A stretch of 64,000 bases of DNA from Rhodocollybia butyracea. Lineage: Eukaryota > Basidiomycota > Agaricomycetes > Agaricales > Omphalotaceae. Location of the stretch: assembly GCA_015501585.1 (NCBI GenBank), contig JADNRY010000106.1, positions 1 through 64,000 of the forward strand. Reading direction: 5' to 3'. Of the stretch, positions 7,490 through 13,976 are shown in pieces. The number at the start of each line of letters is the position of its first letter. The first letter of the stretch is position 1. A program made the position numbers and the translations under genes. Under the pieces are notes generated by a model that was given only the letters and a program-made list of their open reading frames with translations, was not told where the DNA came from and searched no databases.

Positions 7490-8397
7490 GATGAGTGTAG
7501 CACCCAACATAGCTCATTCTGCTCATTCAACCAGCGTCGCATCTGACGCACCCAGAAAAGCCTCTTCCACCACCCTAGGTGCCCGTTCAACGCACCCCGT
7601 TCTTGGTAAAGCTTTTTCAACAACTGTTGCGCCCAATGCTCATTGTACACCCTTAGATGAAGTTTGTTCAACGAGTGTTTCGCCCGGCAATGCTCATTCC
7701 GCATGTTCCGACGAAGCTCATTCAACGAGTGCTTCCCCGATAATACTCATTCCACGCCTTCAGACAAAGCTCGTTCAACGTGTGCTGCACCCGGCCATCC
7801 CCGTTCCACACCCTCAGATGACGTTCGTGCAACAAGTGTTGCGCCCAATAATACTCCTTCTCCACCCTCAGACAAAACTCGTTCAATGAGTGTTGCACCC
7901 GATAATGCTCATTCCGCACCCTCAGCTGACGCTCGTTCAATGAGTGCTGCACCCAATAATAGTCCTTCTGCACCCTCAGACGAAACTCGGTCAATTAGTG
8001 TTGCACGCAATGATGCTCGTTCCACACCCTCAGGTGATGCTTGCTCAACGAGTGTTGCACCCGACGATGCTCCTCCCATACCTCATTCAACGGGAGCTGT
8101 ACCTGATGAGGGTCATCCAATGAATGTCACATCTTCCACGGCTTCAAACAAAGCTTGTTCAACAAGTGTCACACCTGACAACACTCGTTCCACTCCTAGT
8201 GGATCTTGTTCAACTGACGTTGCACCCGATGGATCCCATGGAGCAAGTGTTACGCCCGTGGAAGCTTGTTTAACGAGTGTTACACCTGACGAAGCTCATT
8301 CCGCCCCCAGTAACGGCCGTTCAACGAGCACCGCACCCAGCGGGGCTTGTTTGGCCATCGCAGCAGTTGGCAAGGTTCATTCTGAAGCCAGCGGAAC
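7490..8397 (+). repeat. Coding minisatellite, about 54-bp (18-residue) unit
   Basis: A run of imperfect 54-bp units encodes an 18-residue Ser/Pro/Thr-rich repeat of the form S-x-S-V-A-P-D-N-x-H-S-x-P-S-D-x-x-R. Clear units include TSVAPNNTPSPPSDKT and MSVAPDNAHSAPSADA. The array continues beyond the inserted LTR (STSVVPSDAHS near 9463). A one-base loss near 7735 moves the later units into another frame. Such linkers are expected to be disordered. Confidence 0.75.
8393..8397. repeat. Target-site duplication GGAAC, left copy
   Basis: GGAAC immediately precedes the LTR start and is repeated at 9457-9461 immediately after its end. A 5-bp duplication is standard for LTR-retroelement integration. 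Confidence 0.9.
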
Positions 8398-8573
8398 TGT
8401 TATGACCCGATTCTACACTATAGGCATATACACACTCTTTTTTCATTTATTAACAACCACTACTATCATTAATATTTACCACTTAACATACATTCATTAC
8501 TTATCTTCTCAACACAACTTGGGATAATGCTGCACATTACCATAGAAGCTGCAAAGACCCTTCCACACAGTAT

Positions 8574-8752
8574 TGACTCATTATTAGTCAACTCCGGTTC
8601 CACTAAATGACTCAATATCAGTCATCCATGACTCTACTGAATGACTCAACATCAGTCATCCGCAGTCCCGCTTAAATGACTCAGTAACAGTCATTGCACA
8701 CCATTCCACAGTCATGCTGACTAATCCGCAGCATTTCTGCAGTTATGACTCA
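8574..8752 (+). promoter_or_regulatory. Array of TGACTCA (Gcn4/AP-1-type) sites in the LTR U3
   Basis: TGACTCA occurs at 8574, 8608, 8642, 8677 and 8746, with steps of 34, 34, 35 and 69 bp. Several are followed 5-6 bp later by AGTCA, forming imperfect palindromes such as TGACTCAATATCAGTCA. TGACTCA is the established consensus for fungal Gcn4/AP-1-type bZIP factors. The array sits 50-230 bp upstream of the LTR TATA box, the expected place for activator sites. Binding itself is inferred. Confidence 0.65.
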
Positions 8753-8798
8753 AATCTAGTCATTCCGCAGCATTTCCTAACTAGTACATATTAAACAG

Positions 8799-8805
8799 TA
8801 TATAA
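8799..8805 (+). promoter_or_regulatory. LTR TATA box (TATATAA)
   Basis: TATATAAGG lies after the TGACTCA array and before the hairpin array, consistent with the U3/R boundary. Transcription would start roughly 30-70 bp downstream. Confidence 0.6.
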
Positions 8806-8906
8806 GGAAGCCAGATTTACCAATGTACAGTAGACGTATTATTTTCTTAAATCCAAACCCCCACTTGTTTGCTGTTATCACTTGTGTGAATCACCAGACC
8901 AACTCA

Positions 8907-9262
8907 TTGTATCTTGTTGAGCTATCTCCAAGCTACAATACACATTTATACATCTTGTTGAGCTAACTCCAAGTTGTATCCACTAACATTCACCTGTTGA
9001 GCTATCTCCTAGTGAATACTTCTTTAATTGCCACTTGTTGAGCTATCTCCGAGTTGCAACTTCCTATTACTTGTTGAGCTATCTCCGAGTACTAGACACC
9101 ACACTCATCATTACTTGTTGAGCTATCTCCAAGTATTAGACACCACACTCACTACTACTTGTCGAGCCATCTCCAAGTATTAGTTCTGATTCATATTACT
9201 GCTTGTCGAGCCATCTCCAAGGGTAATCTTATTATTATTTGTCGAGCTATCTCCAAATAATA
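8907..9262 (+). ncRNA. Array of nine RNA-hairpin repeats with a conserved 12-nt loop in the LTR leader
   Basis: The loop TTGAGCTATCTC (late copies TCGAGCCATCTC or TCGAGCTATCTC) occurs nine times at about 40-nt steps. Flanks differ but pair: ATTGTATCTTG/CAAGCTACAAT, ATACATCTTG/CAAGTTGTAT, ATTCAC/GTGAAT, TTGC-ACTTG/CGAGT-GCAA, TACTTG/CGAGTA, TACTTG/CAAGTA (twice), ATTAC-CTTG/CAAG-GTAAT and TTATTATTTG/CAAATAATAA. Compensatory changes (C-G to T-A) and G-U-type pairs occur. This is what selection for a stem-loop in RNA would leave. The region lies downstream of the LTR TATA box, so it should be transcribed. Function is unknown; Gag binding, packaging or translation control are possibilities. Confidence 0.7.
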
Positions 9263-9456
9263 ACTTCTGTGAGTTTCATATTACAAACTAGTTACTAACT
9301 TTACTTGAGCCTAGTTGTTTGAGTATATATTTTTTGCCTAGCGGTTTCAACGAACGGAAAGGCTTGCTCTATAATCTCATTAATTTCTCTTATCATTTTT
9401 ACTGCCGAGTTACGTACTGTGAAGGTTTGGACGAGACTATTGATCAAGTCATAACA

Positions 9457-9461
9457 GGAAC
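9457..9461. repeat. Target-site duplication GGAAC, right copy
   Basis: Direct repeat of 8393-8397. Joining the host sequence at this point restores the codons ...A-S-G-T-Q-S-T-S... of the interrupted gene. Confidence 0.9.
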
Positions 9462-10467
9462 CCAGTCAACAAGTGTTGTGCCCAGCGATGCTCATTCAGT
9501 AGCACCAAACAAAGACATGGTATCAGAGGATATTGCCTCTCTGGATAGGGAATGGCCTATGGCAGAGTTTCCAGAATGGATTCAAAAATTTTACAACGTT
9601 TTCCGGCCCACCGTTACCTGGGATACGCAATGGTTTGACTGTATCAAGCTTTATCTAAAGTTTGAACATAAGCTTGGGTACGAGGAGAGCTGTGGGAAGA
9701 TTCCTCTGGCTCTCAGACCTCCTCAGATTGCGGCGTGGTTCAAGAATCGTTGGAATCCCCAAAGGATGATGAAGGTTTGGACTCCTGAGATTGGCTCAAG
9801 GTGGCATGAAGAGTGGTGGACTTATTGGCGCTCAATCCAGCCGCAGGGTCGGGTGCAGAAAAATAAGCTTGTACGTCCAGAGTCTCTTGATTGGAATAGT
9901 CTTCGAGACAAGGGAGGTGTTGATGGATTTTTGTTGATCATGCTCACCCTCCTTTGGTGGGGTCATGATACACATAGTGGAAAGTTGCGAGACGAGCACC
10001 CAGCAAACTTTGAAGATTGGCGTTTAGCTGTAGCTGATGTCTGGTATGTCTTGGACAGTATCATTGCTCATGGGGTGAAAAAGTCCAAAGGGAAGGTAAA
10101 GCGTAAATATATTGAGATTGAAGCAGCAGAGGACAATGTAGGGTCTGCTCCTGGACGTTCCACTCGCCGCCGACGTAGTGCTCAGGGATCACGGGGGCAG
10201 GAGTAAAGGACTTGAGTGTGTTTTGTTATATTTTGGCGTGCCGATTTAACTCAGATAATTTTTGTGATGATTCAACTCAGAGTTCTTAGTGTCCAGATTT
10301 GATTTGATATTTAATAATTTTTCTTCTTCATACACCAATTTAGTACTGTTGCAGACGCCTACTTGCTATACATATGATCTTAGGCCTTAGAGGGCTCAAC
10401 TTGGATTACACCTTGAGAGTACATATTCTGTGTCTCTATCTTGGATTCCTGTTGTTGGGTCACATAT

Positions 10468-13372
10468 GCAGGCCAATAAATAGTATGCACCTGTCTGAGG
10501 GGGGTATTTTAAACCCCCCAACAGTGGCAGTATCATGCAAATATGGTAATAATCAATTCCCACCCAGATACATAGGCCAATATATAGTACATACCTGTCT
10601 GGTGGCAGTATCCTGCAAATACAGTGATAATCAATTCCCACCCAAATACGCAGGCCAATATATAGTACGCACCTGTCTGAGGGGGTATTTTAATCCCCCA
10701 GCAGTGGCAGTATCCTCCAAATACAGGGATAATCAATTCCCACCCAAATACGCAGGCCAATATATAGTACGCACCTGTCTAAGGGGGTATTTTAATCCCC
10801 CCAGCAGTGGCAGTATCAGCGAAATACGGTAATAATCAATTCCCACCCAAATACGGAGGCCAATATATAGTACGCACCTGTCCGAGGGGGTATTTTAATT
10901 AGCGCAGTAGGGGCAGTATCATCCAAATACGGTAATAATCAATTCCCACCCGAGTACGCAGGCCAATATAGAGTACGCACCTGTCTGAGGGGGTATTTTA
11001 ATTACCCCAGTAGTGGCAGTATCATCCAAATATGGTAATAATCAATTCCCACCTGGATATGCAGGCCAATAGCTAATACGCACCTGTCTGAGGGGTATTT
11101 TAATCCCCCCAGCAGTGGCAGTATCCTCCAAATACGGTAATAATCAATTCCCACCCAAATAGGCAGGCCAATATATAGTACGCACCTGTCTGAGGGGGTA
11201 TTTTAATCCCCCAGCAGTGGCAGTATCCTCCAAATACGGTAATAATCAATTCCCACCCAAATACGCAGGCCAATATATAGTACGCACCTGTCTGAGGGGG
11301 TATTTTAATCCCCCCAGCAGTGGCAGTATCCTCCAAATATGGTAATAATCAATTCCCACCCAAATATGCAGGCCAATATATAGTACGCACCTGTCTGAGG
11401 GGGTATTTTAATCCCCCAGCAGTGGCAGTATCAGCCAAATACGGTAATAATCAATTCCCACCCAAATAGGCAGGCCAATATATAGTACGCACCTGTCTGA
11501 GGGGGTATTTTAATCCCCCCAGCAGTGGCAGTATCAGCCAAATACGGTAATAATCAATTCCCACCCAAATAGGCAGGCAATATATAGTACGCACCTGTCT
11601 GAGGGGGTATTTTAATCCCCCCAGCAGTGGCAGTATCAGCCAAATACAGTAATAATCAATTCCCACCCAAATAGGCAGGCCAATATATAGTACGCACCTG
11701 TCTGAGGGGGTATTTTAATCCCCCCAGCAGTGGCAGTATCAGCCAAATACGGTAAGAATCAATTCCCACCCAAATAGGCAGGCCAATATATAGTACGCAC
11801 CTGTCTGAGGGGGTATTTTAATCCCCCCAGCAGTGGCAGTATCAGCCAAATACGGTAATAATCAATTCCCACCCAAATACGCAGGCCAATATATAGTACG
11901 CACCTGTCTGAGGGGGTATTTTAATCCCCCCAGCAGTGGCAGTATCAGCCAAATACGGTAAATAATCAATTCCCACCCAAATACGCAGGCCAATATATAG
12001 TACGCACCTGTCTGAGGGGGTATTTTAATCCCCCCAGCAGTGGCAGTATCCTCCAAATACGGTAATAATCAATTCCCACCCAAATACGCAGGCCAATATA
12101 TAGTACGCACCTGTCTGAGGGGGTATTTTAATCCCCCCAGCAGTGGCAGTATCCTCCAAATATGGTAATAATCAATTCCCACCCAAATATGCAGGCCAAT
12201 ATATAGTACGCACCTGTCTGAGGGGGTATTTTAATCCCCCCAGCAGTGGCAGTATCAGCCAAATACGGTAATAATCAATTCCCACCCAAATAGGCAGGCC
12301 AATATATAGTACGCACCTGTCTGAGGGGGTATTTTAATCCCCCAGCAGTGGCAGTATCAGCCAAATACGGTAATAATCAATTCCCACCCAAATAGGCAGG
12401 CCAATATATAGTACGCACCTGTCTGAGGGGGTATTTTAATCCCCCCAGCAGTGGCAGTATCATCCAAATACGGTAATAATCAATTCCCACCCAAATAGGC
12501 AGGCCAATATATAGTACGCACCTGTCTGAGGGGGTATTTTAATTACCCCAGTAGTGGCAGTATCATCCAAATACGGTAATAATCAATTCCCACCTGGATA
12601 TGCAGGCCAATAGCTAATACGCACCTGTCTGAGGGGGTTTTTTTAATCCCCCCAGCAGTGGCAGTATCCTCCAAATACGGTAATAATCAATTCCCACCCA
12701 AATACGCAGGCCAATATATAGTACGCACCTGTCTGAGGGGGTATTTTAATCCCCCAGCAGTGGCAGTATCCTCCAAATATGGTAATAATCAATTCCCACC
12801 CAAATATGCAGGCCAATATATAGTACGCACCTGTCTGAGGGTATTTTAATCCCCCCAGCAGTGGCAGTATCATCCAAATACGGTAATAATCAATTCCCAC
12901 CCAAATACGCAGGCCAATATATAGTACGCACCTGTCTGAGGGGGTATTTTAATTACCCCAGTAGGGGCAGTATCATCCAAATATGGTAATAATCAATTCC
13001 CACCTGGATACGCAGGCCAATATATAGTACGCACCTGTCTGAGGGGGTATTTTAATCCCCCCAGCAGTGGCAGTATCCTCCAAATACGGTAATAATCAAT
13101 TCCCACCCAAATACGCAGGCTAATATATAGTACGCACCTGTCTGAGGGGGTATTTTAATCCCCCCAGCAGTGGCAGTATCAGCCAAATACAGTAACAATC
13201 AATTCCCACCCAAATACGCAGGCCAATATATAGTACGCACCTGTCCAAGGGGGTATTTTAATCCCCCCAGCAGTGGCAGTATCATCCAAATATGGTAATA
13301 ATCAATTCCCACCTGGATACGTAGGCCAATACCTAATACGCACCCCAGCTGAGGGGTATATTAATGCCCCTA
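10468..13372. repeat. Satellite array, about 28 copies of a 102-104-bp unit
   Basis: About 28 near-identical units run from 10468 to 13372. Landmarks per unit are GCAGGCCAATATATAGTACG, CACCTGTCTGAGGGGG, TATTTTAATCCCCC, CAGCAGTGGCAGTATC and AATAATCAATTCCCACCC. Length varies mainly through C5/C6 and G4/G5 runs; the second unit is about 79 bp. The first and last units are the most diverged, as usual for array edges. Open frames across the array are by-products of unit lengths near a multiple of three and are not genes. Each unit can form a G5/C5 hairpin. Confidence 0.95.
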
Positions 13373-13464
13373 CAAGTTTACTGTACAGTAGCTTACTGGG
13401 TTTATTATCATAATCTCCACAACAGGTACTGGGGGTATTTAAATAATGCTACTGAAGCGGCTGC

Positions 13465-13976
13465 TTAAGCATAGTAACTACGGTTAGTATCCCGCTCAGC
13501 ACTACAACCCATCTCTATCTAAATAACAGGCTAATCCTGTGTCAGATTCACCTTGGACACATTTTCTGACAAGTATAACCCAGTTGTGGCTAGATTTGGC
13601 TCATCCTCACCTTAAGCGTAGTAACTACGGTTAGTATCCCACTCAGCACTACAACCCATCTCTATCTGAATAACAGGCTAATCCTGTGTCAGACTCACCT
13701 TGGATACATATTCTGACCCGTATAACACAGTTGTGGCTAGATTTGGCTCATCCTCACCTTAAGCATAGTAACTACGGTTAGTATCCCCTCTGCACTACAA
13801 CCCATCTCTATCTGAAGAACAGGCTAATCCTGTGTTAGATTCACCTTGCACTCATTTTCTGACAAGTATAACCCAGTTGTGGCTAGATTTGGCTGATCTT
13901 CACCTTAAGCGTAGTAACTACAGTTTGTATCCCACTCTGCACTACAACCCATCTCTATAGGCTAATCCTGTTATTT
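13465..13976. repeat. Second tandem repeat, about 3.5 copies of a 147-bp unit
   Basis: Units begin at CTTAAGC-TAGTAACTACGG (near 13465, 13611, 13759 and 13906) and contain TCAGCACTACAACCCATCTC, ACAGGCTAATCCTGTG and CCCAGTTGTGGCTAGATTTG. The unit is unrelated to the 103-bp satellite, which ends about 90 bp upstream. The last copy is truncated within the first half of the unit. Confidence 0.9.

Follow-up and report, generated by a model that had tools for sequence, protein, structure and literature searches.

A tandem array of hairpins with a near-constant loop in the predicted leader RNA of a Tf1-like chromovirus from Rhodocollybia butyracea

Introduction

Retroviral psi consists of several stem-loops in the 5' leader of the gag-coding RNA, which are bound by Gag, and single-stranded RNA viruses such as MS2, STNV and picornaviruses contain many packaging stem-loops that are read by the capsid protein. 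Among LTR retrotransposons, the closest described systems are those of the Tf1/sushi group (Tf1, Tj1 and Tosmo), which are Ty3/gypsy elements with a chromodomain whose RNA 5' end is complementary to the PBS inside the 5' LTR, according to the accessible parts of the sources (PMC7175516, PMC4600332, PMC10085805). The accessible text on Tf1 describes the first 11 nt of the RNA as a self-primer (PMC7175516), and the leaders of the group are described in the available part of a further paper as forming a "pretzel" of three duplexes (PMC10085805), the second of which joins the LTR sequence after the primer to the sequence beside the PBS. For Ty1 and Ty3, cis-acting packaging and priming signals lie near the 5' end of the RNA and the proteins can act in trans; the packaging sequences are called "not clearly defined", and no repeated hairpin with a single loop is described in the accessible text (PMC4974528).

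Here, we analysed a window of 64,000 nucleotides from the basidiomycete Rhodocollybia butyracea (contig JADNRY010000106.1, positions 1 to 64,000), in which an LTR carries nine hairpins in tandem. Compared to the Tf1/sushi group, the element shares the chromodomain-containing Ty3/gypsy type, the complementarity of the predicted RNA 5' end to the PBS and, in predicted folds, a second duplex, but its match to the PBS covers 12 nt instead of the 11 in Tf1, our folds contained no third pretzel duplex, and the accessible parts of the papers on that group do not mention hairpins in a tandem array. Like psi as treated in the accessible literature, the array places a number of hairpins in the leader at the 5' end of an RNA that codes for gag, but psi has few and individually distinct hairpins, whereas the array repeats one loop 5 to 12 times. 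With the dispersed signals of single-stranded RNA viruses, as far as the available parts of the sources describe them, it shares a common loop on variable stems; those signals are spread over the genome, whereas the loop-core matches in a full copy of the element are found in the LTRs only.

The preliminary description of the locus knew of no named element like this array, and our searches agree: a comparison of positions 8398-9456 with Rfam 15 gave five matches at E values up to 10, all far below the gathering scores, and a scan of IMG/VR with a 16-mer gave 21 single matches and no array. No such array was described in the literature searched, which consisted mostly of papers available without subscription. 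Accordingly limited to these sources, we regard the arrangement as an array as new, and the signal as belonging to a known kind, the signals in the leader RNA of LTR retrotransposons that prime themselves.

Results

The array-bearing LTR and its copies

The array is part of a solo LTR flanked by a target duplication (Table 1). The genome search with this LTR, as proposed in the preliminary description, yielded at least 56 matches among those listed, 23 of which were nearly full-length at 93% or more, and a pattern for the loop core occurred 2907 times in the 95.6-Mb assembly, compared to 0 times for the reversed control. A full copy was found as a pair of LTRs 10.6 kb apart (C481). Separate open stretches of this copy code for gag with a CCHC zinc knuckle, protease (domain matches mostly below curated thresholds), RT, RNase H, integrase, SH3_Tf2-1 and a chromodomain, and the order of RT, RNase H, integrase, SH3_Tf2-1 and Chromo is that of a Ty3/gypsy pol with an integrase chromodomain. 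The array-bearing element is a Ty3/gypsy chromovirus. Matches of the loop-core pattern in both stretches of this copy were confined to the LTRs. Two other copies, C1 and C705, have a shorter length; among the frames searched, one ORF of C1 matched gag, the second C1 ORF and the C705 ORF matched nothing, and an RT match was absent from both copies. The best 120 of 6385 RT relatives included, among those with names, the Agaricomycetes Trametes, Armillaria, Lentinula, Pisolithus and Termitomyces, together with a powdery mildew, a frog and a bacterial metagenome bin.

The three copies represent subfamilies which share 60-71% identity in U3, 95-99.5% from the TATA box to the LTR end, and 71-88% in the aligned internal parts, with the exception of 36-bp end pieces at 94-100%. 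The conservation between subfamilies therefore spans the whole of R-U5, of which the hairpins are just a part, and may result from sequence exchange during strand transfer. Site diversity by class within the family showed few differences in 15 aligned copies.

Other repeats were observed in and around the LTR. U3 contains five palindromes, all imperfect, with the pattern ATGACTCA..AGTCAT, which we take to resemble GCN4/AP-1 sites, and in the C1 subfamily their place is taken by ATGATATCAT/ATGACATCAT repeats (regions concerned: 8573-8763 of the window and L061 480-800). The promoter repeats change between subfamilies and the leader stays. The LTR splits an ORF rich in 54-nt repeats (7634-8072 and 9457-10206), whose repeat motif picks up again past the LTR. 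Further downstream, 27 copies of a 103-bp tandem unit with 93% identity (10602-13370) precede a second tandem repeat, in which a 147-bp unit occurs 3.4 times (13464-13958).

Table 1. Positions of the LTR, its predicted signals and the nine hairpins in the window
Feature	Position	Strand	Remarks
Solo LTR holding the array	8398-9456	+	read directly from the window sequence
Target duplication GGAAC	8393-8397 and 9457-9461		direct repeats flanking the solo LTR
TATA box, predicted promoter	8799-8806	+	TATATAAG; start-to-start distance to the downstream primer 12-mer, 33 nt
Predicted RNA start and self-primer	8832-8843	+	exact PBS complement in C1, C705 and C591
Predicted closing duplex, 5' arm	8852-8859	+	pairs with 9424-9431
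Hairpin 1	8906-8939	+	loop core from 8917
Hairpin 2	8947-8980	+	loop core from 8958; loop variant, A at position 9
Hairpin 3	8986-9019	+	loop core from 8997; mismatched beside the loop
Hairpin 4	9027-9060	+	loop core from 9038
Hairpin 5	9063-9096	+	loop core from 9074
Hairpin 6	9107-9140	+	loop core from 9118; short stem, folds to the inner six pairs only
Hairpin 7	9151-9184	+	loop core from 9162
Hairpin 8	9195-9228	+	loop core from 9206; asymmetric internal loop; T-A pair replaced by A-T in copy C14
Hairpin 9	9231-9264	+	loop core from 9242; ten perfect pairs
Predicted closing duplex, 3' arm	9424-9431	+	pairs with 8852-8859

Layout and pairing of the hairpins

The nine near-constant 12-nt loops at steps of about 40 nt, as first described, were all recovered at 8906-9264, with a start-to-start spacing of 36-44 nt. 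The loops (n = 9) have a mean identity of 91% and vary at three positions only, and the outer arms of different hairpins are just 40-46% identical. With its own partner arm, the array forms 76 of 90 possible pairs, compared to an average of 63.6 over all 362,880 reassignments of the right arms, of which 54, including the real one, equalled or exceeded this total. When only the six outer positions were counted, 42 of 54 were paired versus a mean of 30.4, and 102 of the 362,880 reassignments were as good. The description of flanks which pair with each other and differ between copies thus holds in its main part, but most of the nine stems contain an internal mismatch. The single hairpins are weak, with energies of -6.4 to -10.0 kcal/mol. 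Folding of the sense strand gave a z-score of -3.33, which none of 100 shuffles matched, versus -1.73 for the antisense strand, with 5 of 100 shuffles as good.

Among the copies, the length of the array ranges from 5 to 12 units, which fits a multivalent signal better than a fixed geometry, and some units are plain 44-nt tandem duplicates. Two loci (L065 and L066) contain fused hairpins consisting of the left arm of one unit and the right arm of the next; these look like deletions between identical loops, and their arms pair badly.

Stem changes within the family

An alignment of 34 distinct hairpins (A1), related by duplication, was hand-picked from 139 stretches. Its paired cells amounted to 88.7% versus 78.6% after shuffling, its double-changed cells to 48 versus 14.1, and its covariation score to 0.324 versus 0.158, each value being reached by 0 of 500 shuffles. 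Neither the count of base pairs showing a double change (6 versus 4.9) nor that of further pair types (15 versus 16.4) exceeded the shuffles, and sliding the structure by 1-3 columns lowered the pairing to 34-50%. Because the rows of this alignment were chosen by hand, it is biased, as is the sister alignment A2 (see below), for which the search required pairing. We also counted all 89 distinct array hairpins of the fetched loci with no pairing filter. Here, 725 of 890 positions were paired, compared to a mean of 645.7 and a maximum of 676 in 1000 whole-arm shuffles. The preliminary description had named a lack of covariation as speaking against its proposal; the unfiltered set showed 89 double-changed cells, compared to a mean of 28.5 and a maximum of 55. 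These recounts, together with those of the sisters, agree with the results from A1 and A2.

Exchanges of C-G for T-A had also been offered as a sign of structure. However, many of the C/T and G/A differences among copies of one hairpin position are located at CpG and look like ordinary decay. The convincing evidence comes from comparisons between hairpin positions, from comparisons between lineages, and from hairpin 8 of copy C14 (row L047), where a T-A pair has become A-T in a clear double swap. As far as sequence comparison can tell, the matched changes in both arms of the stems show that RNA pairing is kept. The ratio of G-U to A-C combinations (28 to 5) was rejected as a strand test and judged weak, because 20 of the 28 lie at the two loop-side pairs exposed to CpG decay; the ratios were 8 to 5 for the outer eight pairs and 5 to 1 in the sisters.

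Arrays in sister lineages

Based on at least 119 RT matches listed, we took 13 stretches where the 3' LTRs of relatives were expected. The C471 stretch was left out and rejected as a sister lineage, its LTR being a solo insertion of the window LTR family. Four of the 13 (L073, L082, L097 and L100) contain arrays of 3 to 6 hairpins with a different loop and stem, one of them partly at 41-nt steps, and the RTs of these lineages are 75-77% identical to that of the window family. In L072, L074 and L096, an LTR-like start or promoter was recognisable without such an array, so the array is not essential to the whole group. No LTR was identified in the remaining six stretches. Neither an LTR end nor a PBS was found in L095. 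Five more stretches picked by primer sequence gave four further arrays of the same sister types. L105 was rejected as an LTR. The sister loops differ as a block from that of the window family and vary more among themselves.

The search requiring pairing gave 23 sister hairpins (A2), of which 21 were distinct. Their paired cells amounted to 94.0% versus 80.1% shuffled, with 22 double-changed cells versus 5.7 and a score of 0.386 versus 0.126, again with 0 of 500 shuffles reaching each value, and here, too, pairs with a double change (4 versus 3.3) and pair types (8 versus 7.3) did not exceed the shuffles. The slid structures showed no double change; the slide by +3 pairs at 80%, with 5 pairs left. 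In 32 sister stretches chosen by the loop motif alone, including matches that are no hairpins, 137 of 192 outer positions were paired (shuffles: mean 108.2, maximum 125) and 31 double changes were counted (mean 13.1, maximum 25). The proposed conservation of RNA pairing is supported by an excess of double-changed stems over shuffles in both the window family and the sisters.

An extra hairpin of the form ACTTA-YTG...CAR-TAAGT was observed upstream of the arrays in L073, L082, L097 and L100. It is bulged in some, reads CTG/CAG in two lineages and TTG/CAA in one, and lies outside the counted set A2.

Promoter and ATG-free leader

From the predicted RNA start to the LTR end, the window copy contains no ATG in 625 nt (9.1 expected), and none of 20,000 simulations was free of ATG. 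Likewise, no ATG precedes the gag ATG in C481 (657 nt, 9.9 expected) or C1 (703 nt, 10.7 expected), and C705 has its first ATG at +652. Among the sisters, four leaders with lengths of 393-525 nt contain zero ATG versus 6.0-7.4 expected, a result obtained in 7 to 48 of 20,000 simulations. The opposite strands of the leaders have 5-13 ATG each, and U3 of the window has 8 in 393 nt (5.8 expected). The ATG-free leaders support transcription in the sense direction and scanning by ribosomes; judging from this pattern, ribosomes probably cross the array, which may equally have a role in translation.

In this family, a distance of 9 nt separates the last upstream ATG from the predicted start at 8832. 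The corresponding distance in three sisters is 60-148 nt from the start, which is thus only loosely bracketed there. Because the start is bracketed by the upstream ATG and the ATG-free leader, in line with self-priming, the array appears to be part of the transcribed leader downstream of the TATA box, as originally proposed and as far as the sequence can tell. In C481 and C1, it lies between the predicted start and the gag ATG, a location like that of psi.

Predicted self-priming and fold of the leader

The PBS, located one base inside the 5' LTR of C1, C705 and C591, is the exact complement of the 12-mer at the predicted RNA start (Table 1); in C481, this 12-mer has one change in the 5' LTR and none in the 3' LTR. 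Exact junctions of LTR end and PBS occur 50 times in the genome, compared to 0 for the control. When both stretches were shuffled, 0 of 20,000 trials gave a 12-nt match; with one side shuffled, the result was 0 of 5000 in one run, and an earlier run of 5000 reached a maximum of 14. Based on this complementarity, the element is predicted to prime itself like Tf1, with an RNA starting near 8832 whose first 12 nt would pair with the PBS.

The window copy is a solo LTR without a PBS of its own. In folds of the C1 and C705 leaders, primer and PBS paired with probabilities of 0.73-1.00, and a second duplex of TCCAAACC with GGTTTGGA, the closing duplex of Table 1, was predicted at 0.85-0.99, these two being the duplexes predicted in the leader folds, with no third of the pretzel type. 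Of the loop-closing pairs of the hairpins, 8 of 10 reached 0.55-0.98 in C1, with two hairpins at 0.08, and 9 of 9 reached 0.47-0.99 in C705; in hairpin 3, the next two pairs after the loop-closing one were at 0.00 in both copies. The models thus place the array inside a predicted loop closed by the primer:PBS pairing plus the second duplex. Five sister leaders were folded without a PBS; in three of them the 5' end formed long-range pairs with the LTR tail at probabilities above 0.5, and in two it did not.

The sister PBSs contain a different 12-mer, and for 15 of 16 listed junctions the same strand carries an exactly complementary primer at 389-521 nt upstream, a count which relies on the 16 one-mismatch junctions listed and on a gap fixed at 1 nt by the query. 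The first pattern used for the sister PBS had 0 matches in the genome; the second, allowing up to two mismatches, had 114 versus 113 for the reversed control, so its total count carries no signal. Primer and PBS have changed together between the lineages, as did the stems.

Discussion

We consider the structure of the array as solid and its arrangement as new, and infer its function from them. Our best explanation, tentative and held at somewhat less than an even chance, is that the R-U5 region of this chromovirus, which is predicted to prime itself like Tf1, carries an array whose pairing is kept and whose loops are putative docking sites of Gag for packaging. The array would act as a multivalent signal within the loop closed by self-priming, where several Gag or nucleocapsid units may bind the loops together and keep RNA that is packaged and primed apart from RNA that is translated. 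Each lineage would use its own loop, the stems being free to change as long as they pair. Because the loops are nearly fixed within this lineage, different in the sisters and variable in number, a loop-specific partner encoded by each lineage fits best, and Gag would be the likely one. Relatives coding for gag only may keep the array so that a complete element can carry them; the finding that C1 and C705 keep R-U5 at 95-99.5% identity without an RT match counts for this reading. Speaking against it are the conservation of R-U5 as a whole, which could be explained by strand transfer, the lineages L072, L074 and L096 that lack such an array, the ATG-free leaders in so far as they suit a role in translation equally well, and the two of ten C1 hairpins that are predicted to form poorly (0.08). 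It appears rather doubtful that all parts hold together as a new cis-element, in which a loop serves as the password of each lineage and is read by Gag, packing and priming occur together and gag-only parasites ride along.

Alternatively, a host RNA-binding protein may read the loops, or the hairpins may slow scanning ribosomes, to control translation, export or stability of the mRNA. This agrees with ATG-free leaders, which look as though ribosomes scan them all the way to gag, and with weak single hairpins (-6.4 to -10.0 kcal/mol) that ribosomes could pass; however, a host protein would be expected to select one loop genome-wide, whereas two related lineages of this genome use different loops, and we consider this explanation unlikely.

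It is also quite unlikely that the array is a structural spacer whose local hairpins shorten the leader and prevent misfolding, helping the 5' end to reach the PBS, with loops that no protein reads. The position inside the loop closed by primer:PBS and second duplex in the C1 and C705 folds and the variable number of units would suit such a spacer, but it needs no constant loop, whereas the loops are the most constant part and differ between lineages as a block.

An annealing of the loops to other RNA, either by kissing dimerisation or to a tRNA or another part of the element, is improbable. The loop shares 10 nt with the antisense strand of a tRNA-Lys gene near an LTR (L024 1068-1143), in the region of its D arm, but the sister loops do not match the sequence of this tRNA, the one compared, so tRNA annealing was rejected as a conserved function. 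Kissing of loops, which the preliminary description had listed as dimerisation, is not favoured and was likewise rejected together with pairing elsewhere in the element, since Watson-Crick pairing between loops extends over no more than 3-4 consecutive positions and sites elsewhere in C481 with at least 9 contiguous pairs number 3, compared to 1.4 plus 1.9 after shuffling. Finally, a mere by-product of tandem duplication or homogenisation of an inverted repeat at the DNA level with no use as RNA, as might be suggested by the plain 44-nt duplicates and the 95-99.5% similarity of R-U5 between subfamilies, is highly improbable in view of double-sided stem changes that still pair, two lineages with different loops, the loss of ATG on the sense strand only and the better folding z-score of that strand.

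Returning to Gag as the reader of the loops, packaging would be tied to self-priming by the position of the array inside the predicted priming structure. The marks by which Ty1 and Ty3 package their own RNA are described as unclear even in yeast in the accessible part of the literature (PMC4974528), and the array is relevant to that problem: a repeated, lineage-specific loop which occurs naturally in 5 to 12 units would represent a small and directly testable packaging signal.
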